From assembly GCF_021631985.1 (NCBI RefSeq), contig NZ_CP070225.1, forward strand, positions 10,292,001 through 10,356,000: 64,000 bases of DNA, written 5' to 3'. Positions 6,119-42,085 of the stretch are shown piece after piece (positions within the stretch are counted from its first letter, which is position 1; every line of letters begins with the position of its first letter). The translations under genes and the position numbers were made by a program. The notes below the pieces were generated by a model. The model ran no database searches. It was given only the letters and a program-made list of their open reading frames with translations, and was not told where the DNA came from. This DNA is from Sandaracinus amylolyticus. GTDB taxonomy: Bacteria > Myxococcota_A > Polyangia > Polyangiales > Sandaracinaceae.

Positions 6119-6122
6119 GCGA

Positions 6123-7490
6123 TCACGCGAGGAGGCCGGGGACCGCCTCGCTCGTCTCGGCGCCGTGGAAGCCGTAGCTCGGGGTGTCGATGCCGAGCGC
6201 GCGCAGGATCGTGACGTGGACCTTCGCGAGGTTGCCGCCCGGCTCGCGCGCGTGGATGCCGCGAGCGAGCGCACCGCGCGCGCCGCCCGCGAGGATCACC
6301 GGGTGCTCGCGGTTGCTGTGGGTGGTGCCCTCGCCGTACTCGCTCGTCGCGTAGACGACCATCGAGTCCAGCAGCGTCCCGCCGTCGTGATCGGGCACCG
6401 ACGCGAGCACGTCGAGGAAGACGCGGAGCGCCTGCATCTGGCGCTGGGTGACGCGGTAGGTCGCGTCCCAGTCGCCGTCGTGCACGACCTGGTGCATGCC
6501 GCCCGCGACGCCGGCGTCGCGGAACACGTGGGTCGTCGCGGGCGAGGTGAGCATCATCGACGCGACGCGCGTGAGGTCGCACGACATCGCGAGCGCGAGC
6601 AGGCGCGTCTGCGCCTCGAGCTCGGCGATCAGATCGCCGCTGCTCTCACCGGGCATCGCGGGCGTCGTGCACGCCGCGACGCCGGCGCGGAGCCGCGTCT
6701 GGATCTCGCCGACGTGCTCGAGGTGTGCATCGAGGCGCTCGCGATCGCGCCCGCCGAGCCGGCGCCGGAGCGCACGCGCGTCGTCGGCGACCACGTCGAG
6801 CACGCTCGCACGACGGCCCAGCACCGCGGTGTCGGCGGGCACGCCGAAGAGGTGCGCGAAGAGCTCGCGCGCCGAGCGCATCGGCAGGTTCAGCATGTCG
6901 GGGCCGCGATGCGAGATCGCGTTCCAGTGGCCGTAGTCGTGGAAGCGCGCGGGGCTCACGGCGAGCTCGATCGAGCGGAAGCGCGGCTGGGTGCCGAGGA
7001 TCGAGCGGCCCGCGAAGTCGGGGTGCGCGGCGATCACCTGATCGATCGTCGCGCGGTTGAACGCGAAGACGTGATCGGGGTGATGGAAGCCCTCGCTGCG
7101 CGGGCGATCGCTGGTGAGCGCGACCGCGCAGCCGCGCATGTGCCCGTCGCCCTGGCCCGGGGGATCGCCGGGGATCTCGGTGTGCGGCTCGAGGCCGGTG
7201 ATCACGTCGATCGTGGGCTCGATGCCGGCGAACGGGCTCAGCAGCGGCGTCGCGCTCCAGCCCGCGCCGATCGTGCTCGGCGTCCAGTGGTCGGGTCGGC
7301 CGTGTCCGTGCGCGCCGTGCCACGGAAGGCCGTTCGCCCAGAAGAAGACCGCGAAGCGCTTGGGCAGCGAGGTGCCGTCGGCGTGCGCGGTGCCGTGGGT
7401 GTCGAGCATCGCGTCGAGGAGCGGCAGGCCCATCGTGCACACCGCGCCGCCGAGCGCGCCGCGGAGCATCGCGCGTCGCGAGAGCTTCAT
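6123..7490 (-). CDS. DUF1552 protein, Tat-exported
   Basis: A 455-residue protein of the DUF1552 family, common in Myxococcota and Planctomycetota, related in fold to DUF1501/alkaline-phosphatase-like proteins, and of unproven activity. It begins MKLSRRAMLRGALGGA, a twin-arginine signal (SRRAM), so it is exported folded. Family features are FAVFFWANGLPWHG near the start, TGLEPHTEIPGDPPGQGDGH, TGTQ-like segments, and the C-terminal block MVVYATSEYGEGTTHSNREH followed by ILRALGID. The ATG at 7490 overlaps the TGA of the upstream DUF1592 gene (ATGA) and has a strong site, GAGGAGGAG, so both are translated together. The same pair occurs again at 59940-62956 in the opposite order. DUF1552 proteins usually travel with DUF1592 partners, so a shared extracytoplasmic complex is likely. 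Confidence 0.88.
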   Translation of the reverse strand: MKLSRRAMLRGALGGAVCTMGLPLLDAMLDTHGTAHADGTSLPKRFAVFFWANGLPWHGAHGHGRPDHWTPSTIGAGWSATPLLSPFAGIEPTIDVITGLEPHTEIPGDPPGQGDGHMRGCAVALTSDRPRSEGFHHPDHVFAFNRATIDQVIAAHPDFAGRSILGTQPRFRSIELAVSPARFHDYGHWNAISHRGPDMLNLPMRSARELFAHLFGVPADTAVLGRRASVLDVVADDARALRRRLGGRDRERLDAHLEHVGEIQTRLRAGVAACTTPAMPGESSGDLIAELEAQTRLLALAMSCDLTRVASMMLTSPATTHVFRDAGVAGGMHQVVHDGDWDATYRVTQRQMQALRVFLDVLASVPDHDGGTLLDSMVVYATSEYGEGTTHSNREHPVILAGGARGALARGIHAREPGGNLAKVHVTILRALGIDTPSYGFHGAETSEAVPGLLA

Positions 7491-9124
7491 CGTGCCTCCT
7501 CCTCGGTGGTGCGCACCGTGCGGAACGCCTCGCTCGTGACCAGCGCGAAGAGCAGCTCGCGGAACCGGAAGCCGCTCTCGGCGAAGCGCTCGGTGAGCTC
7601 CTCGATCGCGCGCCGCTCGCGCTCCTCCTCGAGCCGACCGATCGCGTGGCGGAAGAGCTGGCGGGTCACGCACGCGGGCACGCGGCCGTCGTGGCGCATC
7701 AGCTCGCCGAGCTCGCGCGCGCCTTCGAACGCGAGGGCGTCGAGATCCCCGCGGGCATCGATCGCGCGCCCCGCTTCGAGCGTGCGGTGCGCGCCGATCG
7801 CGTCGAAGTCCTCCATGCCGAGGCCGATCGGATCGATCTGCGCGTGACAGGTCGCGCACGCCGGGTTCTCGCGGTGCACCGCGAGGCGCTCGCGCAGCGT
7901 GCGCGGACGGCCGTCGTCGTCCTCGGCCTCGCCGAGATCGAGCTCGACGTCCTGCGGGGGATCCGCGACGAGCTGACAGAGCAGTCGCTCGCGCACGAAC
8001 TTGCCGCGCCGCGTGGGCGACGTGAGGTTCGGGTGCGCCTGCGCCGCGAGGAAGCCCGCGGTGGTGAGCAGGCCGGCGCGCACGCCCTCGGCGGGCAGCG
8101 TGACGCGCACGAAGCCTTCTTCGTCGGCGTCCTCGAGCGTGATCGGCAGCTCGTAGAGCGCGGCGAGCGGCGCGTCGACGAAGGTCACCGGCGAGTCGAA
8201 GATCGCGCGGAAGTCGCCGTCCTGCTCGAACACGACGTGCTCGACGAGGCGCTCGATCTCGCCGCGCATCGAGCGTCCGAGCGCGGGCGTGAACGAAGGG
8301 AAGAGCGTGGGATCGCGATCGAGCGCGTCGAGCGCGGAGAGGCCGAGGTACTCGCGGAAGAACGCGCGCACCGTCTCGCGCGCGCGCTCGTCGTCGAGGA
8401 GCCGGCGCGCCTCGTGGCGGAGGCCCTCGTGGGTGTCGAGCACGCCGCGCTCGGCGGCATCGAGCAGCGCGTCGTCGGGGATGCGACCCCAGAGCACGAA
8501 CGCGAGTCGGCTCGCGAGCTCGTGGCGGTGCAGCCGGCTCCATCCCGGGCGCGTGGGATCGGGCTCGCCGAGCTCGACGCGATAGACGAACGAGGGCGAC
8601 TGGAGCACCCCCGCGACCAGGCTCGCGAGGCCGCGCCAGGGATCGGTCTCGGCGCGCGCGAGCGTGGTCCAGCGCTCGAGCTCGTCGTGCTCGATCGGGC
8701 GCCGGAACGCGCGGCGGAGGAAGCGCGCCACGAACGCGCGCGCGCAGGGATCGTCGGCGCTCGCGGGGGTGCACCCGACGAGCGCGACGCGGCGCGCCTC
8801 GTCCGCGAAGACCGCGTCGGCCGCGACGTGGGCGGCTTCTTCGAGCTGCTGCGCGCCGCGGGCCGAGAGCGTGGTGCTCCCGGCGCCGATCGACGCGAAC
8901 AGGAACGGCGTGGTGTCGGCCTCGACCGCGCTCTCGGGCACGGGGCCGCCGAGCAGATCCTCGACCGAGCGGTGGTACTGGCGCGTGGTGAGCCGTGGGA
9001 GCACGGCGGGGCCGGGCTCGTAGCTCGCGGTGGTCGCGCGGCCCGGCGACGCCGGGTCGTCGAGCACGACTCCTTCGCATCCCACGAGCGCGAGCGCGAC
9101 GACGGCAGCTGGAAGGCGACGCAC
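7487..9124 (-). CDS. DUF1592/DUF1588-type protein with CxxCH motif, lipoprotein
   Basis: A 545-residue protein with the block order of the DUF1587-DUF1595-DUF1592-DUF1588-DUF1585 proteins: LTTRQYHRSVEDLLG at the N-terminus, ARAFVARFLRRAFRRPI, then FRRP-type helices and LASRLAFVLWGRIPDD, then TSPTRRGKFVRERLLCQ, then CATCHAQIDPIGLGMEDFD (Cys423, Cys426, His427). The CxxCH is a haem-c-type binding signature embedded in DUF1588; whether haem is attached is unknown. The start chosen is a GTG at 9124 giving (M)RRLPAAVVALALVGCEG, a lipoprotein signal, with AGGCGG upstream; longer forms would bury it. It is the first gene of the coupled pair with the Tat-exported DUF1552 protein and is divergent from a possible small gene. 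Confidence 0.86.
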   Translation of the reverse strand: MRRLPAAVVALALVGCEGVVLDDPASPGRATTASYEPGPAVLPRLTTRQYHRSVEDLLGGPVPESAVEADTTPFLFASIGAGSTTLSARGAQQLEEAAHVAADAVFADEARRVALVGCTPASADDPCARAFVARFLRRAFRRPIEHDELERWTTLARAETDPWRGLASLVAGVLQSPSFVYRVELGEPDPTRPGWSRLHRHELASRLAFVLWGRIPDDALLDAAERGVLDTHEGLRHEARRLLDDERARETVRAFFREYLGLSALDALDRDPTLFPSFTPALGRSMRGEIERLVEHVVFEQDGDFRAIFDSPVTFVDAPLAALYELPITLEDADEEGFVRVTLPAEGVRAGLLTTAGFLAAQAHPNLTSPTRRGKFVRERLLCQLVADPPQDVELDLGEAEDDDGRPRTLRERLAVHRENPACATCHAQIDPIGLGMEDFDAIGAHRTLEAGRAIDARGDLDALAFEGARELGELMRHDGRVPACVTRQLFRHAIGRLEEERERRAIEELTERFAESGFRFRELLFALVTSEAFRTVRTTEEEAR

Positions 9125-9315
9125 GCGAACCGCCTGCGCAACGTGTGTGCCGCCCGTGCAGCGCGCGAAATCACGGCGAAAACGAGGATCGCACCGCGCG
9201 ACGGCCCGGTCGCGCCGGAGCCTACGAGCCCGAGCAGCGGGGACGACGCTCCCCATGCCCCCGCGAAAACGTTGCGATCGACCCGTCGGCTCGTAGAGGA
9301 TTCCGCGACACGCGA

Positions 9316-9498
9316 ATGGTGGCGCGCCCGACTCCTACCCCGTTCGAGCGACCGACGTTGCCGGCCCCGGCGCGGCGCGACGACGACGCGACCCGTCCGG
9401 TGTCGATCGGACGAGCGACGCCGCCGCGGCGCGCGCCTGCGGTGCGGGAGATCGCGCCGCCGCGTGATCCTCGCGATCTGCGTCGCGAGCCGGAGTGA
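9316..9498 (+). CDS. possible small Pro/Arg-rich protein, 60 residues
   Basis: A short reading frame, ATG to TGA, encoding a Pro-, Arg- and Ala-rich peptide starting MVARPTPTPFERP. It has no hydrophobic segment and no recognisable domain. In its favour, it fills a gap otherwise without a gene, third positions are G/C-rich, and its stop abuts the stop of the next gene as TGATCA (9496-9501), the same arrangement seen at two confident convergent pairs in this window. Against it, there is no close ribosome site (AGAGGA is about 16 bases upstream) and open frames are common at this GC content. It would be intrinsically disordered if made. Confidence 0.35.
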   Translation: MVARPTPTPFERPTLPAPARRDDDATRPVSIGRATPPRRAPAVREIAPPRDPRDLRREPE

Positions 9499-10188
9499 TC
9501 AGCGCACGGTGCGCAGCAGCGCGTCGATGCCGACCACGCGCACCGTGAGCGCGCCCTGCGCGGTGCGGGTGACCATCCAGCCCCGCGGCGTGCGTCGCGC
9601 GTAGCCCGCGCCTTCGGCGATCACCCGCGCTTCGACGAACGCGGGCGGCACCGGCACCACGAACGACCCGCCGATCGCGAGCGCCCGCGGGACCTCGACC
9701 CGCGGTGCGCGCGTGACGACCGGCGCACCGATCGGCGAGCGTGCGATCGCCGCGCGCAGGTGCTCGACGATCGTCATCGCGTCCGCGCGCCCGTCGATGG
9801 TGCGCACGATCGCGACCACGTTCGCATCGCGCGCGACGACCAGACCCGCCGCGCCGTGCGCCACGTCGGCCCAGACGTCGGTGTCGCGCGTGACCAGGCC
9901 CCGCGTGCTCTCGAGCTCCACGCGCGCTCGCGCGAACGTGATCGCGTCGCGCTCGCTCTCGCGCACCTCGACGTCGAGCAGCGCGATCGCGCCGGGGGCA
10001 CCGACGCGCGCGATCTCGAGGCGCACCGGGCGATCGGCCTCCTCGTCGAGCTCGATCTCGCGCAGCTCGAGCCCGCCCTCCGCGAGCGTCGCGCGAAGCG
10101 CCTCCACCGAGACGCCGGTGCGCACCTGCGCCGACGCGCTCGTCGCGAGCGCGAGCACCAGCAGCACCGAGAGCAGCAGCGTCCTCAT
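9499..10188 (-). CDS. secreted beta-rich protein of unknown function
   Basis: A 229-residue protein with a clear cleavable signal (MRTLLLSVLLVLALATSASAQ, split AQ near residue 21). The mature part is Val/Arg/Glu-rich and beta-strand-like throughout, with no Cys, and has no recognised catalytic motif. Its ATG overlaps the TGA of the transglutaminase-like gene (ATGA), with GAGG upstream. The two are therefore translated together and probably act on the same periplasmic or surface process. A segment AIVRTIDGRADAMTIVEHLR recalls small DUF-type domains that sense or bind a partner, but no family can be named. Confidence 0.78.
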   Translation of the reverse strand: MRTLLLSVLLVLALATSASAQVRTGVSVEALRATLAEGGLELREIELDEEADRPVRLEIARVGAPGAIALLDVEVRESERDAITFARARVELESTRGLVTRDTDVWADVAHGAAGLVVARDANVVAIVRTIDGRADAMTIVEHLRAAIARSPIGAPVVTRAPRVEVPRALAIGGSFVVPVPPAFVEARVIAEGAGYARRTPRGWMVTRTAQGALTVRVVGIDALLRTVR

Positions 10189-11846
10189 CGGATCCTCACT
10201 CGCTCGTCGTGGTCGGTGCGGATGCGCTCGGCCTCGGACGAGAGCGCCGCGAGGTACACGTCGGGCTCGAGGCCCTGCACCAGGAGCTGCGCGTGGGGCG
10301 GCGATGCGGGCGCGCCGTCGCCGTCGACCGCGAGCGTGGCGTCCCAGGTGCGACCATCGCGCGAGCCGACGATCGCGTGGTAGCGGAAGCCTCCGCGGCC
10401 CGAGTCGAACGGCGTCTCGTCGAACGCGCTGCCGCCGATCGCGCGGATGTAGTTGAGGTCGAAGCCGACCTGGGCGCCCGCGACGTTGGTGAGGATGTGA
10501 TAGCGGAGATCGATGCCGACCATGTTCGCGTAGGCGGTCAGGATCGACGCGGCGTCGCTGCAGTTGATGGTCGTGCCCGAGGCGCGCTCCTCGAAGCGCT
10601 GCATCGAGAACGTCGCGCCGGTGAAGCCGCTCGCGTAGTCGGTGTAGAACGACGCGCCGCGCGCGGTGTCGTAGTGCAGGCCCATCGTCGTGTAGATGCC
10701 CTCGACGATCGCGGCCGCGACCTCGCGCTCGCCGGCGCTCGCGCCGTCCACCCACGTCGCGACGCGATCGACGACGTCGACCCACGCGCGGTAGGGAACA
10801 CGATCGAGATCGAACACCGGCTCCGCGACGAGCCCGTAGAGCCGCAACGCGGGCGTGACCGCGCCGGGGATCGGCTGCCACGCGCCGTCGCCGCGGCGGG
10901 CCTCGAACGTGAAGCGCCACGCGACGTCGTAGCGGCCCACCGCGGGCACCGGCGAGGCCGTGGTGCGCGCGAAGATCTCGGCGCCCTCGGCGAAACGATC
11001 CTCGCCGTCGATCGCGAGGCCCTCGGGTGCGACGACGCGGATCTCGAGGGCCTGGGGCGCGCCCTCGATCGCACCCGCCACGACCGACGTCAGGCGCACC
11101 CGCGCGGTGATCTCCGCGCCCGCGATCCACGCGGTGGGAAGGCTGTACGTGTCGTGCTCCACGCCGTCGTCGGCGCGCTCGTCGAGCGGCGGAGAGAGCA
11201 CGTCGTCCCACGGCGCCGGCAGCGCGCGCGGCGTGCGATCGGCGAGCTCGAGCGCGACCGTGCTCGCGTCCTCGCTCGCATCGCGCGCGAGCTGCCAGGG
11301 CAACATCGCGGTGCCGATCTCGTACCAGCCGTCGCGCAGACCGCCGGTCGCGCGATAGAGCAGCGGCACCCGCGACGCGCCCTCGAGCTGCACGCGATCG
11401 ATGCCGAGCCGCACCACCTCGAGCGCGCTCTCCGCGCGCGCGCGCTCCGAGCCGTCGCCGCGGATCAGCCGCGCGGTCGCGACGATCGCGCCCGGCGCGA
11501 CGAGCTCGCCCGCATCGTCGCGTCCGTCCCACCGCGCTTCGCACCCTTCGAGGCGCCGCACCGTCGTGCCTTCGCGCGCCAGCTCGATCTCGCAGCGATC
11601 GCTCGGGCCGAGCCCGCTCGCTTCGAAGGTGATCGGCCAGCCGTCGAAGCCCTCGAGCAGCGGATCGGCGGCGACGAGCTGATCCTCCGCGGGCCGCAGC
11701 GACGCGCGGAGCGTGGGCGCCGGCCGGCTCGCGACCGGCGGATCGTGGGTGTAGGTCGGGACGGATGGCTCTCCGGAGCAGCCTCCGATCGCCACCATCG
11801 CGGCGAGCGTGACGAGCGAGCGCGAGATCGTTCCCCGTCCGAGCAT
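10185..11846 (-). CDS. lipoprotein with transglutaminase-like catalytic domain
   Basis: A 553-residue lipoprotein. The signal SLVTLAAMVAIGGC ends in a good lipobox (IGGC). Residues 40-400 hold Ig-like beta domains, including FDGWPITFEASGLGPSD and a FlgD-type segment WDGRDDAGELVAPGA. The transglutaminase-like core has a Cys429 helix (TINCSDAASILTAYANMVG), His490 in FRYHAIV and Asp502 in TWDATL, the Cys-His-Asp order of the family. Such domains crosslink or cleave peptides; in bacteria most are thought to be proteases or peptidoglycan-linked enzymes. Only the triad order is visible here and activity is not shown. It is coupled to the secreted protein downstream and divergent from the first RND efflux operon across 144 bases. 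Confidence 0.83.
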   Translation of the reverse strand: MLGRGTISRSLVTLAAMVAIGGCSGEPSVPTYTHDPPVASRPAPTLRASLRPAEDQLVAADPLLEGFDGWPITFEASGLGPSDRCEIELAREGTTVRRLEGCEARWDGRDDAGELVAPGAIVATARLIRGDGSERARAESALEVVRLGIDRVQLEGASRVPLLYRATGGLRDGWYEIGTAMLPWQLARDASEDASTVALELADRTPRALPAPWDDVLSPPLDERADDGVEHDTYSLPTAWIAGAEITARVRLTSVVAGAIEGAPQALEIRVVAPEGLAIDGEDRFAEGAEIFARTTASPVPAVGRYDVAWRFTFEARRGDGAWQPIPGAVTPALRLYGLVAEPVFDLDRVPYRAWVDVVDRVATWVDGASAGEREVAAAIVEGIYTTMGLHYDTARGASFYTDYASGFTGATFSMQRFEERASGTTINCSDAASILTAYANMVGIDLRYHILTNVAGAQVGFDLNYIRAIGGSAFDETPFDSGRGGFRYHAIVGSRDGRTWDATLAVDGDGAPASPPHAQLLVQGLEPDVYLAALSSEAERIRTDHDERVRIR

Positions 11847-11990
11847 GCGCGAGCCCCCGGCGATCGAGCGTAGCCGACGTGTAAAGAGCTCGCCGCCGCC
11901 CTGCCTACATCGCGATCGAAAGATCGGGTGATCACGCATCGCCGCGCGACCATCGCGGTCCCTCTCGCGCGCCTTAGAAGCCAGCGCGCG

Positions 11991-14900
11991 ATGTGGATCG
12001 TTCGACTCGCCCTCCGCCGGCCACACACCTTCGCGGTGCTGGCGCTCCTGATCGTCGTCGCCGGCGTCGAGACGATCCGGCGTACGCCGACCGACATCTT
12101 CCCGAGCGTCGATCTGCCGGTCGTGAGCGTCGTGTGGGTCTACTCCGGCCTGCCGGTGCCCGAGATGCAGCAGCAGATCACGCGCTCCGCGGAGTACGCG
12201 ATCGCCGGCAACGTCGCGGACATCCGCACCATCGAGAGCCAGACGCTCGACGGCGCGTCGGTCATCAAGATCTACTTCCACGAGGGCACCGACGTCGCCG
12301 CGGCGACCGCGCAGGTCACCGCGATCATGCAGACGATCGTGCGGCTCATGCCACCCGGCACCCAGCCGCCGATCATCGTGCGCTACGACGCGTCGAGCGT
12401 GCCGGTGCTCCAGCTCGGCTTCTCGAGCGACACGCTCTCCGAGGCCGAGATCTTCGACTTCGTGAACCGCACCGCGCGCCAGCAGCTCGGATCGATCCGC
12501 GGCTCGCGTTATCCGGTGCCTGCGGGCGGCGCGCCGCGCCAGGTCGTGGTCGATCTCGATCCCGACGCCCTGCGCGCGCGGGGCATCTCGCCCGGCGACG
12601 TCACCCAAGCGGTCGGTCTGCAGAACCTCACGCTGCCCACCGGCACCGCGAAGATGGGCGAGCTCGAGCTGCGCGTGAGCCTCAACAGCAGCGCGACCTC
12701 GATCGAAGCGCTCAACGACGTGCCGATCGCGCGGCGCGACGGGCGCACCATCTTCGTGCGCGACGTCGCGTTCGTGCACGACGGCTACGCGACCCAGACC
12801 AACGTGGCGCGCCGCGAGGGCAGCCGCGCGATCGTGCTCTCGGTCCTGAAGAACGGCGACGCATCGACCACCGACATCGTCGCGCAGGTGCGCGACATGA
12901 TCCCGCGGCTGCAGGCGGTCGCGCCCGAGGGGCTCGAGATCGACGTCGTCTCGGACCAGTCGGGCTTCGTCACCGAGGCGGTGCACGGGCTCGTGGTGGA
13001 GGGCGCGATCGCGGCGTCGCTCACCGCGCTGCTCATCCTCGTGTTCCTCGGGAGCTGGCGCAGCACGATCATCATCGCGACGTCGATCCCGCTCTCGGTG
13101 CTCGTCGCCGCGCTCGCGATGCGCGCGATGGGCCACACCATCAACGTGATGACGCTCGGCGGGCTCGCGCTCGCCATCGGCATCCTGGTCGACGACGCGA
13201 CGGTCGAGATCGAGAACGTCCACCGCCACCGCGCGATGGGCAAGACGCTCACCCGCGCGATCCTCGACGGCGCGCAGGAGATCGCGACGCCCGCGTTCGT
13301 CGCGTCGCTCTCGATCGCGATCGTGTTCGTCTCGCTGGTGTTCCTCGAGGGACCGCCGCGCTTCTTGTTCCTCCCGCTCGGGCTCGCGGTCGGGCTCTCG
13401 GTGATGGCGTCGTACTTCCTCTCGCGCACCGTCGTGCCGACGATGATGCGCGCGATGCTGCGCGACGAGGCGCCGCACGGGCACGGCACCTCGCCGCTCG
13501 CGCGCATCAACGGCGTCGTGGAGCGCGCGTTCGAGCGCATGCGCACGCGCTACGGGCGCACGCTCGCGGCGCTGCTCGCGCGTCCGGCGCTCACGATCGG
13601 CGGGTTCGTGATCGTCGTCGCCGGCGCGATCGCGCTGGTGCCGCACCTCGGACGCGACTTCTTCCCCACCGTCGATCAGGGCCGCATCCGCCTCCACGTG
13701 CGCGCGCCCGCGGGCACGCGCATCGAGGAGACCGAGCGCATCTTCGCGTCGGTCGAGTCGATCGTGCGCGAGGTGGTCCCGGCCCACGATCGCGAGCGGA
13801 TCCTCGACGTCATCGGGCTGCCCGCGCCCTACACGATGGCGATCACCGACACGACGAGCACCAGCACGTCGGAGGGCGAGATCCTGATCGACCTCGCGCA
13901 CGACCGCGCGCGCAGCACCGACGACTACCGGCGCGCGATCCGCGAGGAGGTCCATCGGCGCATGCCCGACGTGACCGTCTACTTCGAGGCGGCCGACATC
14001 ATGACGCAGATCCTGAGCTTCGGGATCCCGGCGCCGATCGACGTGCAGGTCGCGAGCCTCAACCGCGATCAGGCGCTCGCCGCGGCGCGCGCGATCCGCG
14101 CCGAGCTGAGCGAGGTGCCGGGGCTCGTCGACGTGCGGCTGCAGCAGGTGATCGACGCGCCGCGCCTGCACCTCGAGGTCGATCGTGCGCGCGCGATGGA
14201 GGTCGGGCTCACCCAGCGCGACGTCGCGTCGAGCGTGCTGCTCGCGGTGGGCACGAGCGGCGTGACGAACCCGAACTACTGGACCGATCCCCGCACCGGC
14301 AACGCGTACCCCGTGGTGGTGCGCATCCCCGAGCGGCTCACGTCGTCGGCCGACGATCTCTCGACGTTGGGCCTCGCGACCGAGGCGGGCCCGCAGCTGG
14401 TCGGCGATCTCGCCGAGCTCTCGCGACGCACCGCGCCGGTGGTCGCGAGCCAGGTCGACGTGCAGCCCACGTTCAACGTGCGCGCGAGCCTGCAGGACGC
14501 GGATCTCGCGAGCGTCACCGAGCGCATCGACACGATCCTCGCGCGTCACCGCGCCGACCTCCCGCCGAGCGTGACGATCGCGCTGCGCGGTCAGCCTGCG
14601 AGCATGGAGTCGGCGTTCCACGGGCTCGGCCTCGGACTGCTCTGCGCGGCGCTGATCGTCTACGCGCTCATGGTCGTGAACTTCGGCTCGTGGGTCGATC
14701 CCGCGATCGTGCTCGTCGCGGTGCTCGGCTCGGGCGTGGGCATCGTCGCGTCGCTCTGGGTCACGCAGACGACGCTCAACGTGCCGTCGATGATGGGCGC
14801 GATCACCAGCATCGGGATCGCGACCTCGAACGCGACGCTGCTCGTGACCTTCGCGAACGAGTCGCGCGCTCACGCCGCGAGCTCGATCGACGCCGCGCTC

Positions 14901-33479: not shown

Positions 33480-36400
33480 TCAGCGCGCCGTGAGCAGCGC
33501 GAGGATCGCGTGCCCCTCGGCCTCGTGCGCGTCGTCGGTGTCGCGCGCCGCGAGGCCGATCACGTGCGCGGCGAGGATGGCGAGCGCTTCGGGGTGATCG
33601 CCTGCCTGCGCGAGCGCCTCCGCGAGCGGGTGGGAGCGCGCGAGCTCGACGCTGCCTTCGGGCCGCAGCGCGGCGAGCGGGTGTGTCGAGAGCGGGAGCG
33701 CGTGGATGCGCGGCACCGCACCGCGGGCGGCGCCGGCGCGGCGCAGCAGCGCATCGACGCGCTCGGCGAGCGGATCGACGGCGACGAGAGGGCGCGCCGC
33801 GGGCTTCGGCAGCGGCGCCTCGATCGGCTTTGGCGGCGTGATCGGCGGCGGCACGATCGCGGTCGCGGGGAGCTGCTCGGGCTGCGCGCGCACCTCGGGC
33901 TCCTCGCGCACGCGATCGGCGAGCGCCTGCTCGAAGCGCACGACGCGATCGCCGAACGCGAGGATCGCGCGCATCGACGCGAGCGACCCGTCCTCGCGCA
34001 GGATCGGGCCCTTCCACGCGAGCTCGCGCGCGTGGACCGCGCGCTCGGGCGGGACGATCAGCGCGTTGTGGCGATCCTCGAGCGCGCGCGCGAGCCCGAG
34101 CACGTCCCCTTTCGAACGGCGGCGGTACGAGAGATCGAGGAAGGGCAGGGCGATCGCGGCCGCGGGGTGCTCCGCCTGCACGAAGCCGAGCGCGGCGGCG
34201 CGCACCATCTCCGCGAGGTCGAGCTCGCGCTCCTCGCCCTTCCGCTCGCCGCTGAAGAGGCGCCGCGCGATGTCGCGCGACATGCGCTCGTACGCGTGGT
34301 TCGCGATCGACGTGAGCACCGCCGCCGCGCCCTGGCCCGCGACGCCGACGATCGCGAGCTCGCCCGCGAGCGGCACGCGCGCGTCGCGCGTCGTGCTGCG
34401 GGAGGTCGTGAGCACGCGCTCGGCGCGCTCGTACGCGTCGAGCACGATCACCGTCGGCTCGCCCGCGGGCTCGAGCCACAACACCCCGCGCGCCTGCGCG
34501 CCGCGGCCCGAGAGCGCCTGCGTCGAGAACGTGCGATCGACGCGCACCATCGCGAAGGGACGCTCGGGCGCGGTGAACGCGCTCTCGAGCGCGCGCTCGC
34601 ACGCCTCGAGCACGGCGCCCGAGACCTCCTCGAGCGCCGCGTCGGGCACGGGTGCGGCCCACGTGCGATCGGGCGTGAAGCGCGGCTCGTCGACCCACGA
34701 GAGCGCGGGCCACGCCGCGGGATCCTGGAGCGTGCCGAGCGGCTGTCGGTCGCGCGACGCGTGCATCGTGCGGCTGCTCGCGTGCGTGGGCAGCAGCGCG
34801 AGCACCACGCCCTCGTGCCCCTCGAGCGCGGCCTCGGCGATCGCGCGGGCACGATCGCCGCTCGCCGGGCCGACGATCTCGAGCTTCGGGCGCGCGAGGT
34901 TCCTCCGCGCGATCGCGTCGAGGCGCAGCTCGGGCTCGGCGTCCTGCGTCGCGAGCACCACGCCGAGGCGCGTCGCGTCGGCGCGCGCGAGGCGGATCGC
35001 GAAGCGCTCGGGATCGAGCGGCTCGAGGCTCTGCATCGAGTCGGTGGTGACCCAGAGCTTCGCGAAGCGCGCGACCTGCGCCTGGAGATCGCGGAACGAG
35101 GCCCAGCGTCCGGCGGTGGTCTCGAACATCGGGAGATCGGGGATCGAGTCGAGGTGAGCGCGACCGCCGAGCAGCGCGCTCTCGCACAGCGCGACGCGCA
35201 CCCACCCGGGCAGCGTCGCGTGATCGACGCTCTCGACGAGATGGCGGATCGCGCGCGCGAGCACGGTGCGCACCGCGTTCTCGAGGCGCGTCCGATCGCT
35301 CGGCGTCACCTCGCGCGCGACCGGGAACGAGGGCTCGCACGCGAGCTGCACGCTCGGGCGCAGGTCGAGATCGATGCGCGTCACGACGACGCCCGCCTCG
35401 TGGACCGCGACGAGGGTCGTGTCGCTGCCGCTCACCGCGATCTCGCCGATGCCGAGCGCCTCGAACGCCTCGCGCTCCGAGGGCAGCGCGACCTCGAGAA
35501 GATCTTCGAGCGTCCAGCGGAAGCGCGTGTCGCGCACCGAGAGGAGGCGAGGGCGCTCCGCGAGGCCCCATCGCACGCGACGCGTGGCCTGGAGTCGACG
35601 CACGTCCGCGCTCACGTCGCGCACCACGCTCGGGGCCAGCGCGCGGACCACCCGCGCGACCGGTCCCTCGCCCGCGAGCGCGAGGATCGGCGCGTCGAGC
35701 GAGTCGGGCTCCTCGCCCTGCGGCGCGTCGAGCCAACGATCGATCGGCGCCGCGATGCGCAGCGTCCGACGCGAGACGGTGCACGCGGTGATCGACGCGC
35801 GCGTGCCCTGCACGGTCTCGAAGATCGACGCGTTGCGCAGCGCGTCCATCGCGCGCTCCGATGCCGCGCGCCGCTTGCCGCCCGCGAGCGTCTCGGCGAG
35901 CCACGCGTCGACGAGCGCGAGCGCGGGCTCGTCGTGGGCGAGGGCGCCGTCGAGCGACGTCGCGAGCGCGCCGACGAGCTCGCACGTGGCCTCGCGCAGC
36001 GCGCCGCGCACGCGGCTCTCGCCGGTGCCGTTGAGCGCCTCGAGCTCGCCGTCGACGAGCGGGAGGTCGACGTCGACGATCCCCGCGAGGTGCGGCAGGC
36101 CTTCGCTGCGCGTCGCGAAGGGGCGGTGCTCGAGCAGGATGCGCAGCTCGTGGCGCGCGGCGCCGCGGGAGAGGCCGAGCACGCCGCGCAGGCCGTCCCC
36201 CGAGAGGCGCGCCACCGGCTCGCAGCGCGAGAGCTCGAGCGCGCGCTTCGGCAGCGCGCGATGCGCCTCGATGCGCGCGTGGCGACGCGCGTCGCGTCGT
36301 CGTCGCTCGAGCTCGCCGAGGCCGTTCTGCACGCGCACCTGGAAGAGGCGGCCGATGCTCTCGGCGACGTCGTCGCGCGCGAGGAGCGGGTGGAAGTCGG

Positions 36401-39179
36401 CGGGCGGTGCGCTGCGATCCTCGGCGATCGCGATCGGCGTGACGTAGACCAGCTCGCCCCCGAGCGCGGCGACGAGCTCGTCGAGCGACGCGAGGCGATG
36501 GGTGTAGGCGCAGCGGAGGATCGGAGCCTTGCGCAGCGCCTGCACGCGCTCGCGGCCGAGCACGTTCGCGGCCGAAGGACGGATGTCGCGGCACGCGGCG
36601 AAGAAGGTCTCGAGCGCGTGCGCGTCGGGGGTCGGATGGAGCGGCGGCGCATGCAGGCCGGGCACCTCGCGGCCGATCAGCGCATCGGCGGTCGCGACCA
36701 CGAGGCGCGCGATCTCGCCCGCGATGTCGTCGTAGGGCGCGGCCGCGGGCACGAAGCGCGGCGCGCCGATGCCGGGCACCACACGATCGTCGTCGAGCGC
36801 GAGCAGCCATCCCGCGCGCGGTGCGCCGGTGGGCACGACGGCGTCGAGCGGGCGTCCTGCGTGCGAGAGCTCGAGCGCGCCTGCGCCTTCGTGGAGGCCG
36901 ATCGCGCCGCGGTGATCGCGACCTTCGATCTCGAGCGCGACGGTGCACCGCGTGCGCAGCCCGCGCGCGATGCGCGCAGCGCTCGGGGGCGAGGGCGCGC
37001 CGTCGTAGCCGACGATCGCGAGGTTGGGCAGCAGCGCTGCGAGCAGATCTCGCTCGCGGGAGTCGAGCACGAGCACGCTGCGCCCCGCGGGCTCCCACGG
37101 CGTGTGCGGCACCGAGGTCACGTACCCGATCGCGCTCGACGGATCGCTGCCGAGCGCCACGAGGTCGGTGAGCGAAAGGTGCTCGCCGGTCACCGTCGGC
37201 CACACCGGCGCGTCGAGCAGCGGGCTCTTGCTCCCGAGCAGGCGCGTCGCGCCGGCGCCCGCATCGCCGGTGCCGATCCGATGGAGCAGCTCGATCGCGA
37301 GGAGGATCCCGGCGCGCACCGCGCGCGCGGCGTCGTGCACGTCGAGCTCCCCGACCCAGCGCACCGGATCGCCCTTCGGCGCGTCTCGCTCGGCGAGGCG
37401 GCGTGCGATCGACTCGCACGCGATCACCCGCGCGCCGTCGATCGCCGACAGGAGCGCGGCGCGGGCGTCGTCGGCGGCGAGGCGCGTGTGATCGGCGGCG
37501 ACGCGGAGATCCGATGCGGTCGCGATCGCGTCGAACGCGAGCGGCACCGAGAGGCGCGCGATCTCGGTCGCACGTCCCTCGACCAGCAGCGTGATCGTCG
37601 ACGAGCGAGCGGGCGACGTGTCGATCGCGACCTCGCCCGCGAGATCGGGGCGCGCGAAGAGCGTCGCGGGGACACACGTGCGCGCGCTCTTTCCGGGCGC
37701 CGCGAGCGGCGCGATCACGAGGTGCCCTTCGTGCGGCGCGGTGATCGTCGGTGGCGTGATCGGCTTCTCGAGCCACCGCGCGCGGGCCTCGCGCGATGCG
37801 CGTGCGAGCTCGATCGTGCGCCGTGCGCTGCGCGGCGGCTCCGCACCCCACACCCGCGCGAGCGCGTCGCCGGGCGGCACCCACGGGAGATCGCCGATCC
37901 ACGGCGCGAGCTCCGGCGGCAAGGGCTCGGGCCCGGTGTGCGCGCCTCCGTCCTCGCCCCGCGCGAGCTCCCGCAGCGATCGCGCGCGCCCGATCGCGTC
38001 GCGTGCGATCGGCGCATCGAAGAGCGGCGCGAGGCGCTCCGGCATGCCGAGCACCGGCGGCGCGCTGGCGAGCCGGCGCCAGTCCGGGCCGCCGCACCAC
38101 GCCGAGGCGAGCTGGATCGCCGCCGCGCGCAGCCGCGCGCGTCGATCCGCGTCCCACGTGCCCTCGGGCGCATCGCCGAGCTCGCGCGCGACGCGCGCGA
38201 CGAGGTCTCCGAAGCGCTCGACGAGGTGCTCCTCGAGCTCGGTGATCCAACGCTCGTCGCGTCGGATCGCGGAGCGCGACGCGTTCGTCGGCAGGCGCGC
38301 CGCATCGATGCGCGCGCGCACCGGGATTCGCGCGCCGGTCTGGAACGGGACGCCGAGCTCGAGCGGCTGCGTCGCGAGCACGACGCCGAGCTCCGCGAAG
38401 TCGATCCACGGCTCGGCGCGCGCGGCGCTGGGATCGACGATCGCGAGGAACCCCTCGCGGCCCTCGCCGAGCACGCTCGCGTCGAGGCGCACGCGCAGCA
38501 GGTCGCGGCCGGCGTGGTGTCGCGCGAGCGCGCCGCGCGCGATGCGCAGCGGCAGCGGGAAGTCCTCGCACGCGCGCCGCACGAAGCGCAGCTCGCGCGC
38601 TTCCTGGCCGGTCGCGAGCAGCGAGAGCGCCTCGAGCGCGGGGAAACGACGGAGATGGACGACGACGCCGCGGCGGATCGTCGGCGCGCCCGCGGGCAGC
38701 GTCGCATCGACCGGCGCGAGCCGGCGCAGCCCCTCGGCCGTGCCCTCGTGGCCCGCTGCCAGCAGATCGGGCGTGTAGCGCACGCGCGCCGCGCCCTCGT
38801 CGGTGTCGCCGATCGTGTAGAGGTCGACCCAGCGCGGACCGAGCCCGAGCGCGGTGTTGACCGCGGTCGCGAGCAGGCGCAGCGCGCGGCGATCCTCGCT
38901 CGCCTGCGGGCTCACCAGCTCGTCGAACAGCCGCGTGAGCTCGTCGCGCGCGATCGGCGTGCCTTCCCACGCGACCCACACGTCGTCGGCGTCGCCGTCG
39001 ACGTGCACCGCGGTCGCCGATGCGCTCGCCGCGGCGCGCACCGCTTCGAGCGCCCACATCGCGGGATCCGCGAGCTGGTAGTCGCGGAGCTTGTGCACCG
39101 CGCGCGCGGCGTCGACGCGGAGCCGGCCTCCGCCGACGCGCGATCCGGTCGCGGCGCGCGGCTTGCGCGAGCGGCTCAT
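33480..39179 (-). CDS. 1,899-residue protein with degenerate HSP90-like N-terminus
   Basis: A very long cytoplasmic protein. Residues 25-130 align by pattern with the HSP90 ATP-binding (GHKL) domain of its neighbour: LRDYQLADPAMWALEAVRAA, then AVHVDG, then WVAWEGTPIARDELTRLFDEL, then LLATAVNTALGLGPRWVDLYT. However, the Asn and Asp of the ATP site are replaced (EAVRAAASASA instead of ELVQNSIDAGA), and the GxxGxG loop is absent, so it looks like a pseudo-ATPase. Residues 296-308 (LPTNASRSAIRRD) match the HSP90 middle-domain phrase. The remaining 1,500 residues are helical/beta and unrecognised. ATG has GGAGGT five bases upstream and overlaps the HSP90-like gene's stop (ATGA). An equally long open frame on the other strand is a codon-bias shadow. 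Confidence 0.8.
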   Translation of the reverse strand: MSRSRKPRAATGSRVGGGRLRVDAARAVHKLRDYQLADPAMWALEAVRAAASASATAVHVDGDADDVWVAWEGTPIARDELTRLFDELVSPQASEDRRALRLLATAVNTALGLGPRWVDLYTIGDTDEGAARVRYTPDLLAAGHEGTAEGLRRLAPVDATLPAGAPTIRRGVVVHLRRFPALEALSLLATGQEARELRFVRRACEDFPLPLRIARGALARHHAGRDLLRVRLDASVLGEGREGFLAIVDPSAARAEPWIDFAELGVVLATQPLELGVPFQTGARIPVRARIDAARLPTNASRSAIRRDERWITELEEHLVERFGDLVARVARELGDAPEGTWDADRRARLRAAAIQLASAWCGGPDWRRLASAPPVLGMPERLAPLFDAPIARDAIGRARSLRELARGEDGGAHTGPEPLPPELAPWIGDLPWVPPGDALARVWGAEPPRSARRTIELARASREARARWLEKPITPPTITAPHEGHLVIAPLAAPGKSARTCVPATLFARPDLAGEVAIDTSPARSSTITLLVEGRATEIARLSVPLAFDAIATASDLRVAADHTRLAADDARAALLSAIDGARVIACESIARRLAERDAPKGDPVRWVGELDVHDAARAVRAGILLAIELLHRIGTGDAGAGATRLLGSKSPLLDAPVWPTVTGEHLSLTDLVALGSDPSSAIGYVTSVPHTPWEPAGRSVLVLDSRERDLLAALLPNLAIVGYDGAPSPPSAARIARGLRTRCTVALEIEGRDHRGAIGLHEGAGALELSHAGRPLDAVVPTGAPRAGWLLALDDDRVVPGIGAPRFVPAAAPYDDIAGEIARLVVATADALIGREVPGLHAPPLHPTPDAHALETFFAACRDIRPSAANVLGRERVQALRKAPILRCAYTHRLASLDELVAALGGELVYVTPIAIAEDRSAPPADFHPLLARDDVAESIGRLFQVRVQNGLGELERRRRDARRHARIEAHRALPKRALELSRCEPVARLSGDGLRGVLGLSRGAARHELRILLEHRPFATRSEGLPHLAGIVDVDLPLVDGELEALNGTGESRVRGALREATCELVGALATSLDGALAHDEPALALVDAWLAETLAGGKRRAASERAMDALRNASIFETVQGTRASITACTVSRRTLRIAAPIDRWLDAPQGEEPDSLDAPILALAGEGPVARVVRALAPSVVRDVSADVRRLQATRRVRWGLAERPRLLSVRDTRFRWTLEDLLEVALPSEREAFEALGIGEIAVSGSDTTLVAVHEAGVVVTRIDLDLRPSVQLACEPSFPVAREVTPSDRTRLENAVRTVLARAIRHLVESVDHATLPGWVRVALCESALLGGRAHLDSIPDLPMFETTAGRWASFRDLQAQVARFAKLWVTTDSMQSLEPLDPERFAIRLARADATRLGVVLATQDAEPELRLDAIARRNLARPKLEIVGPASGDRARAIAEAALEGHEGVVLALLPTHASSRTMHASRDRQPLGTLQDPAAWPALSWVDEPRFTPDRTWAAPVPDAALEEVSGAVLEACERALESAFTAPERPFAMVRVDRTFSTQALSGRGAQARGVLWLEPAGEPTVIVLDAYERAERVLTTSRSTTRDARVPLAGELAIVGVAGQGAAAVLTSIANHAYERMSRDIARRLFSGERKGEERELDLAEMVRAAALGFVQAEHPAAAIALPFLDLSYRRRSKGDVLGLARALEDRHNALIVPPERAVHARELAWKGPILREDGSLASMRAILAFGDRVVRFEQALADRVREEPEVRAQPEQLPATAIVPPPITPPKPIEAPLPKPAARPLVAVDPLAERVDALLRRAGAARGAVPRIHALPLSTHPLAALRPEGSVELARSHPLAEALAQAGDHPEALAILAAHVIGLAARDTDDAHEAEGHAILALLTAR

Positions 39180-40903
39180 CGCGCACCTCCGCCCGCGAGC
39201 GCATCGCGCATCGCGCGCTCGGTCAGCGACGCGTCGATCGCCGGCGTGAGCGCGCCGCGGGCGACGAGGATCGCGCGCGCGAGCAGCGCCGACGCGAGGA
39301 CCGGCGCGTCCACGGCGCGCGCTCGCGCGGCGTGCACGATCGGGTTGTCGGCGCGCAGCACCAGCGGTGGCCGCATCAGCATCCGGAACGGGTCGGCCTG
39401 GTGATCGGACGCGCGCGCGAGCCACGGCGTCGCGCGCGCGCTCGCCGCGACCGCGAGGTGGCTCTCGGCCGCGCCATGGACGTGTGCGAGCACGAGCTCG
39501 CTCGGACGCCGCACCACGTCGCCGAGCCGCTCGGAGACCTGCTCGAGCAGCGCGACGTCGGTGGGGCTCGGCTCGATCGGGACGATCAACGACCACAGCG
39601 CGCGATCCCTCGCCGGCGCGGCGTCGGCGATGCGCGCGAGGAGCGCGATCACGCGCCCCAGCGCGTCGTGATCGGGCGCGAACGAGAGATCGACGACGAC
39701 GTGGCCCGCGGCCGCGAGCGCTTCGGCGAGCTCGGTGCGCCCCTCGTGCGAGGCGAACGCGCTCGCGAGATCGTGCAGCCGTGCGACCCGCTGCTCGCGC
39801 TCTCGCGTGATCGCCGGCAGCACCAGCGCACGCCGCGGCGCCGGCAGCTCCGAGCGCACGAACGCGTCGAGGATCTCGACGATGCGACCGCCCGCATCGC
39901 GACTGCCGCGCGCGAACGCCTCCGATGCGTTCGCGAGCTGCTCCGCGAGCTCGTCGAGCAAGGGCCCGCGGATCGTGCTCGCGACGAGCTCGACCGCGCG
40001 CGTGTAGTGCTCGTCCCGCCGCACGTCGTCGCGGCTCAGCGTGTGCTCGAGGCGCGCGTCGGAGACCTTGAAGATCACCTCGCCGAGCTCGTGATCGCGC
40101 GTCTCGTGCAGCAAGAGGCCCTGGTTGAAGAACGCTCCGTAGCGATCGCCTGGTCGCGGGAGCCCCGCGACGACCGTCGTCAATCCGTCGCGGCTCCGCG
40201 CGTGCACCCCGACCACCGCGTCGATCGTCATCGGCTCGTCGATGCGCACGTCGCGGCGCGGCTCACCGCCCTCGGCACCCAGCGCGACGAAGCGGATCGG
40301 CACTCGCGTGTGGCGGCACCAGCGCTTCAGCGCGGCCTCGGATCGCTCGACGAACCCGGCCTCTTCGGCGTCGGGCAGTGGCACGACCAGCGTGACCGTG
40401 GTGCCGCGGCCGGCGTCGCTGTCGGCGCGGAAGAGGTCGTAGGTCTGATCGCCGTGCAGGTGCAGCGACCAGCGCGTGCCGTCACCGGTCGACGTGTCGA
40501 CGATCACGACCTCGGGATCGACCGCGAGCACCGAGACGAAGCCGATGCCGAACTTGCCGATCGCGTCGTCGCGCGACTCCTTGGTCGACTTGAACAGGAC
40601 GGTGAGATCGTTCTCGAGGATCTCTCGCGTCATGCCGGTGCCGTCGTCGCGCACCGACACGCGCATCGTGCCGACCTCGTCGCCGGCGCCGGGCTCCCAC
40701 GCGAGCTGCACGTGGATGGACGTCGCGCCCGCGTCGATCGAGTTCTGCACGAGCTCGCGAAAGAACGCGAAGCGGTCCGCGAACTGCCGGATCAGATCGT
40801 CGACGAGCCCGCGATCGCTCGGCGCGCTCTCCGCCGGCGCGGCCGGTCCGCCGCGATAGGGCGTCCCCGCCGCGGGCTTCTTGTTCTTCTTCTTCGCGCT
40901 CAC
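39176..40903 (-). CDS. HSP90-like GHKL ATPase
   Basis: A 575-residue protein with intact ATPase motifs: FRELVQNSIDAGATSIHV (Glu50, Asn54, Asp57), VRDDGTGM (Asp86, Gly88, Gly90) and GKFGIGFVS (Gly116, Gly119, Gly121). The middle-domain phrase HTLSRDDVRRDEHYTRAV is at residues 287-304. It lacks the usual C-terminal dimerisation domain of HtpG; instead the last 250 residues are unlike HtpG (ALVLPAITREREQRVARLH, TPWLARASDHQADPFRMLM). It begins with a Lys-rich tail (AKKKNKKPA). A GTG start at 40903 overlaps the upstream gene's stop (GTGA). It is part of a three-gene unit with a 78-residue protein and a giant partner that seems to have lost its ATP site. Confidence 0.85.
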   Translation of the reverse strand: MSAKKKNKKPAAGTPYRGGPAAPAESAPSDRGLVDDLIRQFADRFAFFRELVQNSIDAGATSIHVQLAWEPGAGDEVGTMRVSVRDDGTGMTREILENDLTVLFKSTKESRDDAIGKFGIGFVSVLAVDPEVVIVDTSTGDGTRWSLHLHGDQTYDLFRADSDAGRGTTVTLVVPLPDAEEAGFVERSEAALKRWCRHTRVPIRFVALGAEGGEPRRDVRIDEPMTIDAVVGVHARSRDGLTTVVAGLPRPGDRYGAFFNQGLLLHETRDHELGEVIFKVSDARLEHTLSRDDVRRDEHYTRAVELVASTIRGPLLDELAEQLANASEAFARGSRDAGGRIVEILDAFVRSELPAPRRALVLPAITREREQRVARLHDLASAFASHEGRTELAEALAAAGHVVVDLSFAPDHDALGRVIALLARIADAAPARDRALWSLIVPIEPSPTDVALLEQVSERLGDVVRRPSELVLAHVHGAAESHLAVAASARATPWLARASDHQADPFRMLMRPPLVLRADNPIVHAARARAVDAPVLASALLARAILVARGALTPAIDASLTERAMRDALAGGGAR

Positions 40904-41136
40904 GAGCGTCGCTGTTCCTGCGCGCTTCGTTCCGCGATCACCGCGACGAGCACCGCGCGCACCGCGGCCTCGTCGAGGCCCTTGAGGAAGTCGACCTTGT
41001 CCACGAGCTGCGGGAGCCCGGCGATCACCAGGCGATCGTGGGTGACCGGACACCCGAGCTGGCCGCGATGCAGCCGCGAGAGCATCAGCTTCAGGTCGCT
41101 CGTGGAGACGTGAACCAGGCCCTTGCCGCCGATCAT
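40900..41136 (-). CDS. 78-residue protein heading the HSP90-like operon
   Basis: A small soluble protein beginning MIGGKGLVHVSTSDLKLMLS. It continues with HRGQLGCPVTHDRLVIAGLP and LVDKVDFLKGLDEAAVRAVL, ending VIAERSAQEQRRS. It is helical, with one conserved-looking Cys and no enzyme motif. I know no family for it. The ATG has GAGGG seven bases upstream and palindrome copy D ends just upstream of that site. Its TGA overlaps the GTG of the HSP90-like gene. The overlap and gene order suggest a small cofactor, adaptor or regulator of the HSP90-like pair. Confidence 0.78.
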   Translation of the reverse strand: MIGGKGLVHVSTSDLKLMLSRLHRGQLGCPVTHDRLVIAGLPQLVDKVDFLKGLDEAAVRAVLVAVIAERSAQEQRRS

Positions 41137-41240: not shown

Positions 41241-41969
41241 TCACTCCTCGGGATCGTCGATCGCGCCGGGCTCGCTCGGCGTCTCGGTGGGCTCGAGCGC
41301 GTAGGTCTGCACGACGTCGGTCGCGCGCTCGCGACAGTACGCGGCCCACTCGCCCCAGAGCTCCTCGCCGGACTCCTGGAACGCCGCCTCGCAGAAGCGA
41401 TACGCCTGCACCGCGACGCGCGCGTAGGGCACGAGCGCAGCGAGCATCGACTCGTCGTAGACGCGCAGCAGCTCCGCGTCGCTGGTGATCGCGTCGGGGA
41501 TCGGCGCGCCGCGCACGTCGGCGACCGTGTCCTCCTGCAGGTACCCGAAGAGCCCGGCCGCGACGCCGCGCTCGTGCGCGGGCGCCTCGGAGAGCGGCTC
41601 GAGCGCGTTCTGCACGTCGGTCGACGCGCGTGCGCGCTCGGTCAGCCACGATGCGAAGGGCCCCTCGGCCCACGCGTTCACCGACTCGGTCGAGCCGTCG
41701 CTCGGTGGCTCGGGCGGGCGCACCGCGACGGCGGCCTCGACGCGATCCCAGAGCGCCTGGAGCTCGGGCGACATCTGCTCGCGCGCGACCGCGGGCTGCG
41801 GCACCGGGATCGGCGTGGTGGTGCGGATCGGGTGCGCCTCGGGCGTGGTGGTCGCTTCGCCGCCGGCGGTCGTGTCGGTCGTCGCGGTCGTCGTCTCGGT
41901 GCGCGCGCCGCCGCACGCGGTGAGCGCGGCGGCGATCGCGACGACGAGGAATGAACGGAGCGTCGTCAT
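41241..41969 (-). CDS. lipoprotein of unknown function
   Basis: A 242-residue lipoprotein (signal VVAIAAALTAC, lipobox LTAC, then GGARTETT). A Thr/Pro/Glu-rich linker of about 40 residues follows. The rest is helical and acidic, with no recognised domain. A pair of Cys (YRFCEAAFQ and AYCRER) may form one disulphide. It is divergent from the ferritin-like gene across 116 bases. Downstream, copy D separates it from the HSP90-like operon. The ATG is chosen because it opens the signal. Confidence 0.75.
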   Translation of the reverse strand: MTTLRSFLVVAIAAALTACGGARTETTTATTDTTAGGEATTTPEAHPIRTTTPIPVPQPAVAREQMSPELQALWDRVEAAVAVRPPEPPSDGSTESVNAWAEGPFASWLTERARASTDVQNALEPLSEAPAHERGVAAGLFGYLQEDTVADVRGAPIPDAITSDAELLRVYDESMLAALVPYARVAVQAYRFCEAAFQESGEELWGEWAAYCRERATDVVQTYALEPTETPSEPGAIDDPEE

Positions 41970-42085
41970 GGTGGGCCGACAACGTAGCCGAAAGGTGCGC
42001 GCGGCGCCGAGGGTCCGAGCACGCGGCTTGCTCTCGCCCTCGACCGCCCGCGTCGCGGCACGGACGGGCACAGGAGGGATGCTCG

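Follow-up and report, generated by a model that had tools for sequence, protein, structure and literature searches.

Can an HSP90 be divided between two genes? HSP90 is taught as one gene giving one symmetric dimer with one middle domain per arm. The question arises from a locus of Sandaracinus amylolyticus (contig NZ_CP070225.1, positions 10,292,001 to 10,356,000 of the forward strand), a stretch of 64,000 nucleotides with a G+C content of 73.9% that we call the window and whose positions serve as coordinates. Three minus-strand genes at 41136-33480 are referred to here as g1 (40900..41136; 78 amino acids, ATG start), g2 (39176..40903; 575 amino acids, GTG start), and g3 (33480..39179; 1,899 amino acids, ATG start). 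A first-pass annotation of this DNA had reported three genes with 4-base overlaps; coordinates and overlaps were confirmed, with g1 and g2 sharing GTGA (40903-40900) and g2 and g3 sharing ATGA (39179-39176). When the host genome (two contigs, 10.96 Mb) was compared with a sister species (G008), the ratios of nonsynonymous to synonymous substitution rates were 0.13 for g1, 0.26 for g2, and 0.31 for g3, indicating purifying selection and hence that all three are real genes. We propose that g2, an HSP90-like ATPase with an intact GHKL site, and g3, a pseudo-HSP90 with an amplified middle domain, are two subunits of one HSP90-like machine, and we give this reading a probability of roughly 55%. In what follows, order, family, and phylum are those of the host genome (G000), G-labels denote genomes, and L-labels denote loci.

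The GHKL domains of g2 and g3

Within Pfam, g2 matched above cut-off only with its GHKL domain (HATPase_c_3, E = 1.4e-13; HATPase_c, E = 2e-10), and the SACS model remained under its cut-off (E = 2.5e-7). NCBIfam models of HSP90/HtpG covered residues 31-207, also under their cut-offs, with weaker matches to MutL models (E = 1.1e-8). A family profile of 34 g2 rows matched HtpG (2iop) over positions 34-538 with an E-value of 5.2e-14 and matched TRAP1 too, and profile-profile alignment to HtpG, represented by 30 proteins from the phylum, placed g2 30-556 on HtpG 28-634 (E = 1.8e-26).

The N-terminal GHKL ATPase domain of g2 (residues 31-205; 40289..40813, minus strand), delimited by the NCBIfam HSP90/HtpG match and by invariant motifs, has E50/N54/D57, D86-x-G88-x-G90, and G116-x-x-G119-x-G121. 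These motifs had been listed in the first-pass annotation, and the nine GHKL positions that we counted were invariant in all 34 rows from the order (including the window) and all 40 further rows, while Thr168 is replaced by Ser in two of the 74. The order rows omit L004 (same genome as L057), L052 (contig end), and L060 (misassigned start); the further rows are those of 46 g2-like frames that passed a length and E-value filter, and L155 and L156 among them are one gene. In the middle domain (residues about 216-330; 39914..40258, minus strand), which contains an HTLSRD loop, Arg291 aligned with HtpG LPLNVSRE and was kept in 74/74 rows. The C-terminus, previously described as unlike that of HtpG, has indeed diverged strongly. 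Using hhalign, we could nevertheless align a short motif of the HSP90 C-terminal type (residues 514-528; 39320..39364, minus strand) with the HtpG C-domain (46 columns, E = 7e-4, compared with 0.38-0.40 for reversed controls). Because of the near end-to-end alignment with HtpG and the invariant GHKL positions and Arg291, g2 is predicted to be a very diverged, nearly full-length HSP90-type protein with an active-looking site. An ordinary HtpG is encoded elsewhere in the host genome (C1:668773-670014). We also noted an additional HSP90-like frame of 760 amino acids there (L201:2656-4935, at about 10.738 Mb of C1), which matched the g2 profile with an E-value of 1.6e-19 and just reached PF00183.

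No family in Pfam, PADLOC, or NCBIfam matched g3 at E<=1, and the best match of a g3 profile to PDB sequences was at chance level (E = 0.086). Aligned with g2 by hhalign, g3 26-434 fell on g2 32-406 with an E-value of 3.4e-16, in agreement with the earlier remark that the giant begins with the same layout. We then counted residues of the ATP site in the pseudo-GHKL N-terminal domain (residues 1-210; 38550..39179, minus strand), which was delimited by the alignment to g2, these counts, and PDB structure matches. The 58 rows, one of them gapped at several positions, comprise 32 from the order including the window (without L004, again the same genome as L057, L052, which has no g3, and L049, L053, and L061, which lie at contig ends) and 26 of 31 further g3-like frames that passed the length and E-value filter. 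The ATP-site Asn is replaced in all 57 rows that have a residue there (by Ala in 50 of them, by Gly or Val in three each, and by Phe in one), and the Asp after it and the Asp of DxGxG are each kept in 0/58 rows (one gapped there). The first and second Gly of the glycine loop are each kept in one row of the 58 and the last in 36, so that the loss of Asn and Asp first reported for the window holds, but the loss of the loop holds in part. The first Glu is present in 51/58 rows and a late Thr in 27/58. The N-domain of g3 is thus, as judged from these alignments, a paralogue of that of g2 from which the ATP-site Asn and both Asp are gone; lacking ATP-binding residues of HSP90, g3 is classed as a pseudo-HSP90 and not as an HSP90. 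The split into a live g2 and a dead g3 was valid in every row examined.

A structure model of the g3 N-terminus, built from four rows, had a mean predicted local distance difference test score (pLDDT) of 44.9, with blocks in residues 41-180 reaching 55-77. The best 50 of 573 Foldseek matches were N-domains of the HSP90 family, the MutL family, and gyrase (best E = 2.2e-5). Re-alignment to HtpG (1y4u_B) gave a Z-score of 13.7 and a root-mean-square deviation (rmsd) of 3.8 for 164 aligned residues, and re-alignment to human HSP90 (8gae_A) a Z-score of 11.7 and an rmsd of 6.7 for 235 residues over model positions 15-370. Because the modelling alignment contained two g2 rows, the model and the sequence evidence overlap in part. 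The likeness to HSP90 structures suspected for the N-terminus of the giant is borne out by this low-confidence model, which matches N-domains of both HSP90 and MutL. Together, the alignments to g2 and HtpG and the structure matches assign to g3 an HSP90-type N-domain followed by a first middle domain. The latter includes an LPTNASR loop (residues 296-302; 38274..38294, minus strand), aligned with HtpG DLPLNVSRE and the counterpart of the catalytic-arginine loop of HSP90; it begins the stretch LPTNASRSAIRRD at residues 296-308, in which Arg302 is invariant in the order (32/32 rows).

The matches to MutL also raise the question of whether the pair is a GHKL clamp acting on DNA or the chromosome, of the MutL/MORC/SMCHD1 type, with the g3 repeats described below as an arm on DNA. 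The pseudo-GHKL model matches ATPase modules of MutL/PMS2 and SMCHD1 as well (Z about 12), and MutL models recognize the N-domain of g2, as stated above. However, the best long profile matches of g2 are to HtpG and TRAP1, the middle-domain loop and the C-terminal motif are of the HSP90 type, and no nuclease, helicase, or DNA-binding family of Pfam or NCBIfam matched g3. We regard a DNA clamp as quite unlikely.

Repeat array and C-terminus of g3

What fills the remainder of the giant? We compared 140-residue segments of the 32-row g3 alignment with each other (1,128 pairs). The best pair had an E-value of 1.7e-13, compared with 0.017 for the best of 1,128 pairs with one side reversed, and the matches followed a single register that recurs about every 245-260 residues. 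This gives six units, all on the minus strand and with borders set by hand: R1 (residues 213-480; 37740..38543), R2 (about 470-742; 36954..37772), R3 (about 728-985; 36225..36998), R4 (about 975-1212; 35544..36257), R5 (about 1205-1432; 34884..35567), and R6 (about 1425-1660; 34200..34907). R1 was delimited by its HtpG alignment as well as by the segment comparison, the other five by the segment comparison. A candidate seventh repeat (about 1556-1651) reached just E = 0.018-0.024 and is not claimed. The units share strands, a 'P..a.vD...LxP' loop, long helices, and a 'G...SLxxL' element.

R1 alone, with its LPTNASRS sequence, aligned on HtpG DLPLNVSRE with an E-value of 1.9e-4, and g3 residues 1-450 aligned with HtpG as far as the SL element of the latter (E = 1.4e-4). 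The five other units matched R1 with E-values of 1e-5 to 1e-7. The relatedness of R2-R6 to R1 is a firm prediction from these profiles, and the further step to HtpG, by which R2-R6 would be HSP90 middle-domain-like, we make with moderate confidence. The array was demonstrated for g3 proteins of the order type.

The C-terminal region of g3 (residues 1760-1899; 33483..33902, minus strand) contains an HSP90-type motif, SHPLAEAL, from residue 1849, whose His1850 is kept in 26/32 order rows. It aligned with the HtpG C-domain over 21 columns (E = 1.4e-4; reversed controls, 0.37-0.52) and with the C-terminus of g2 at E = 0.0065; six reversed controls of the C-terminal comparisons gave 0.37-0.64. We read g3 as a putative pseudo-N-domain followed by six middle-domain-like units and an HSP90-like C-terminus, of which the tandem units and the C-terminal motif had escaped the first-pass annotation.

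Co-occurrence and genomic context of the pair

If g2 and g3 act together, are they inherited together? Of 144 genomes sampled from the order, 39 have g2 (E<=1e-20), 42 have the g3 N-terminus (E<=1e-15), and 38 have both (Fisher p = 4.5e-29). In four of the five mismatches the match sits at a contig start that would remove the partner: in G143 the g2 match begins at base 69 and g3 would be expected off the contig; of the genomes with a g3 match only, G027 has a partial g2 just upstream, and in G082 and G090 the contig starts 109 and 591 bases before the match, respectively. The fifth, G017, has a weak g3 match (4.9e-20) and no g2. Directly behind g2 we found g3 in 34/35 order loci, and the contig of the 35th stops within g2; with automated starts, 21 of these 34 show the 4-bp overlap. 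Identities of g2 and g3 correlate across 31 loci (mirror-tree, r = 0.98; maximum of 1000 permutations, 0.36), a value that still includes shared species history. The adjacency, the 38 genomes with both genes, and the live/dead split uphold the proposal that a dedicated pseudo-ATPase accompanies an HSP90-like ATPase that looks active.

The pair is found in myxobacteria and relatives of theirs, with similar pairs outside the order. Across the phylum, the g2 profile matched 70/329 genomes at E<=1e-15, five of them with four matches, and the weakest of the 70 may be other HSP90 paralogues. From these matches we chose 40 further regions by hand and not at random, one of which, L160, is a second locus of an order genome. 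They gave 39 further g2 loci (38 outside the order), with a g3-like frame nearby in 27 by the order-built profile and in 32 by a broadened profile trained on 26 frames from 25 of these same loci. In L134, g3 is 2.1 kb distant from g2. L139 has two consecutive g3-like genes of 1,372 and 1,194 amino acids after one g2 (5142-12814), and L160 (G087; 5410-9390) has adjacent GHKL proteins of 607 and 703 amino acids that are weaker relatives of g2 and possibly a second type of pair. In L200 (G168:C83), an apparent frame of 24,615 amino acids crosses masked sequence (the stretch includes 8,500 N).

The same data bear on the idea that g3 is the decayed and expanded copy of a duplicated, diverged HSP90, with no function shared with g2. 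The paralogy of the N-termini and the ordinary HtpG in the genome would fit such a duplicate, but g3 is under purifying selection and has invariant residues, and across the order the genes co-occur almost completely and overlap. This makes independent decay very unlikely.

An anti-phage or conflict system, with g2 as ATPase switch and g3 as giant sensor or effector, would resemble other GHKL-containing defence systems, and a defence-type complex had been suggested when the locus was first annotated. In support, the GHKL stretch of g2 weakly matches PADLOC TmtA (1.8e-9) and MzaB (0.0039), presence is patchy (39/144 order genomes), and genomes elsewhere in the phylum have up to four matches; a GHKL domain is also reported for a variant of Shedu (PMC12137116). 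However, the PADLOC matches are confined to the generic ATPase domain of g2, the pair has no PADLOC component beyond it, and Pfam, PADLOC, and NCBIfam reveal no known effector domain in g3. Plasmids gave no g2 match at E<=1e-10, phage records gave two weak ones that cover 41% of g2, and among viral contigs, 9 relatives with a GHKL domain matched the g2 profile over short stretches and none matched the g3 profile. Within the order, the g2 tree tracks host families: f12, f5, and f1 each form a single clade, that of f1 being modestly supported (90/72), and f4 needs two changes. The weak GHKL matches and the patchy presence thus stand, but inheritance within families and the missing plasmid and g3 matches speak against the suggestion, and we consider a defence role unlikely. 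A defence island or mobile system was rejected for want of a plasmid match to g2 at E<=1e-10 and because the order loci have, besides the partner, no widely recurrent neighbour gene beyond genus-level synteny and scattered matches.

Several observations weigh against one HSP90-like machine made of g2 and g3. Pfam HSP90 (PF00183) is not among the g2 matches at E<=1. The N-domain register differs between the direct g3-HtpG alignment and the g2 alignment, and we therefore base the N-domain assignment of g3 on the g2 alignment and the model. Residual nucleotide binding by g3 is conceivable, since some ATP-site residues remain (the Gly of DxG in 49/58 rows). Pooled without R1, R2-R6 fell on HtpG 309-450 in the register of R1 weakly (E = 0.014), as they did singly (E = 0.012-0.34); a structure model of R5 (mean pLDDT 52.9) had no PDB match at E<=0.001, and the repeat signal of 17 distant g3 proteins, each 1,000-1,400 amino acids long, was weak (best 3e-4 versus 0.012 reversed). 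Among the 39 hand-chosen further g2 loci, seven are without a clear adjoining g3, and in two further loci (L133, L137) g3-like frames are upstream of g2. No recurrent chaperone gene was seen near order or further loci. Because Arg302 is invariant in the order, g3 may influence the active site of g2 there, a role that would not be general because just 3/26 g3 proteins outside the order set keep it. Finally, the assembly of g2 with g3 is itself something that we infer from sequence data.

How could a machine of g2 and g3 work? Translation of the two overlapping genes may be coupled, and the products would assemble via their N- and/or C-terminal domains, like HSP90 protomers and MutL-type heterodimers. 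g2 would hydrolyse ATP and drive an open/close cycle, and g3 would be a non-catalytic scaffold that tethers g2. The middle domain of HSP90 binds clients and supplies the catalytic Arg; the middle-domain modules of g3 could form a long surface that holds large or multi-domain clients.

Does the small gene belong to the system? A three-gene system including the 78-residue g1 product was envisaged in the first-pass annotation, and the 4-bp overlap with g2 in the window and the position of g1 directly upstream of the pair in the sister species as well are in line with it. Homologues of g1 are present in 9/10 family genomes (weakest best match, 4.9e-6). In three of them (G002, G003, G009), which are draft assemblies, we found no g2/g3 pair, and in four family genomes g1 and the pair are on different contigs. 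In G002 and G003, but not in two other examined loci, g1 lies behind a homologue of the same upstream gene as in the window (41241-42071, minus strand; 276 amino acids, weak lipoprotein-type matches), and none of the 34 order loci other than the sister species has g1 in front of g2. Because g1 is present without the pair in three relatives, two of which share with the window the gene that precedes g1, we conclude that it is a neighbour and not a member: a bystander that goes with the upstream gene. Of the co-occurrence expected for three genes, that of g2 and g3 (38/144 order genomes) was found and that of g1 was not; the three-gene system is largely refuted and hardly probable. The weak match of g1 to PADLOC DrmC (E = 0.0032) is probably due to chance.

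Around the pair, a 'TA...T' box noticed by eye often precedes the g2 start by a short distance in order loci. Two unnamed families, of about 370 (coiled-coil-rich by eye) and about 335 amino acids, each accompany the pair in eight further loci, and both are present in seven: L140 (1248-2366 and 2370-3380), L143, L148, L149, L150, L151, and L153. They had no Pfam matches in L140, L143, and L150 and no NCBIfam matches in L140 and L150.

Comparison with known systems

Which known systems come closest? Like HtpG and other HSP90A proteins, g2 has the N-domain, the middle domain with its Arg loop, and the C-terminal motif in the same order and aligns over nearly its whole length; unlike them, it is too diverged for Pfam HSP90, is paired with a pseudo-HSP90, and is found in a genome with a separate HtpG. 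Bacteria have long-branch HSP90 paralogues, Hsp90B and Hsp90C (PMC3708813), and set against g2/g3 by description, these differ in that the available text of PMC3708813 mentions neither a partner gene nor a repeated middle domain. The likeness to GHKL defence proteins was discussed above. GHKL subunits that pair as paralogues are known from MutL-type heterodimers (MLH1-PMS1/2), and g2 and g3 resemble these in being paired paralogous GHKL subunits; to our knowledge, MutL-type heterodimers have no repeated middle domain, unlike g3. A search of the open-licence PubMed Central literature found no paper on such a live/dead pair, and as far as the available texts show, none of these nearest systems, including sacsin, combines the split with an amplified middle.

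Sacsin is likewise a giant with an HSP90-like N-domain and a middle-domain equivalent (PMC9880540, PMC3629688). It differs in having three large repeated blocks, each with an ATPase domain, plus J and HEPN domains: instead of SIRPT blocks that each contain a GHKL domain, g3 has one GHKL region, which is dead, with the repeats in its middle part, and no Pfam domain, J and HEPN included, matched it at E<=1. Membership in the sacsin family was rejected, as none of three bacterial proteins with PF25794 (from G156, G192, and G173) significantly matched the profiles of g3 or of the repeats.

We tentatively suggest, at somewhat less than even odds, that a bacterial HSP90 has become divided into obligate subunits, one of them a compact ATPase and the other a dead giant with a sixfold multiplied middle domain, so that one engine would serve a long, multi-site client-holding arm. 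Such a chaperone would parallel sacsin independently in bacteria and would be shared by several lineages of a single phylum. If true, the pair of live and dead protomers would be a naturally asymmetric machine on which to test the long-standing question of what HSP90 needs its two ATP sites for, and the repeated middle domains would illustrate a way in which HSP90 can be lengthened for large clients. Loss of sacsin causes the ataxia ARSACS (autosomal recessive spastic ataxia of Charlevoix-Saguenay), and g2/g3 would then provide a small, tractable bacterial comparison for this protein.

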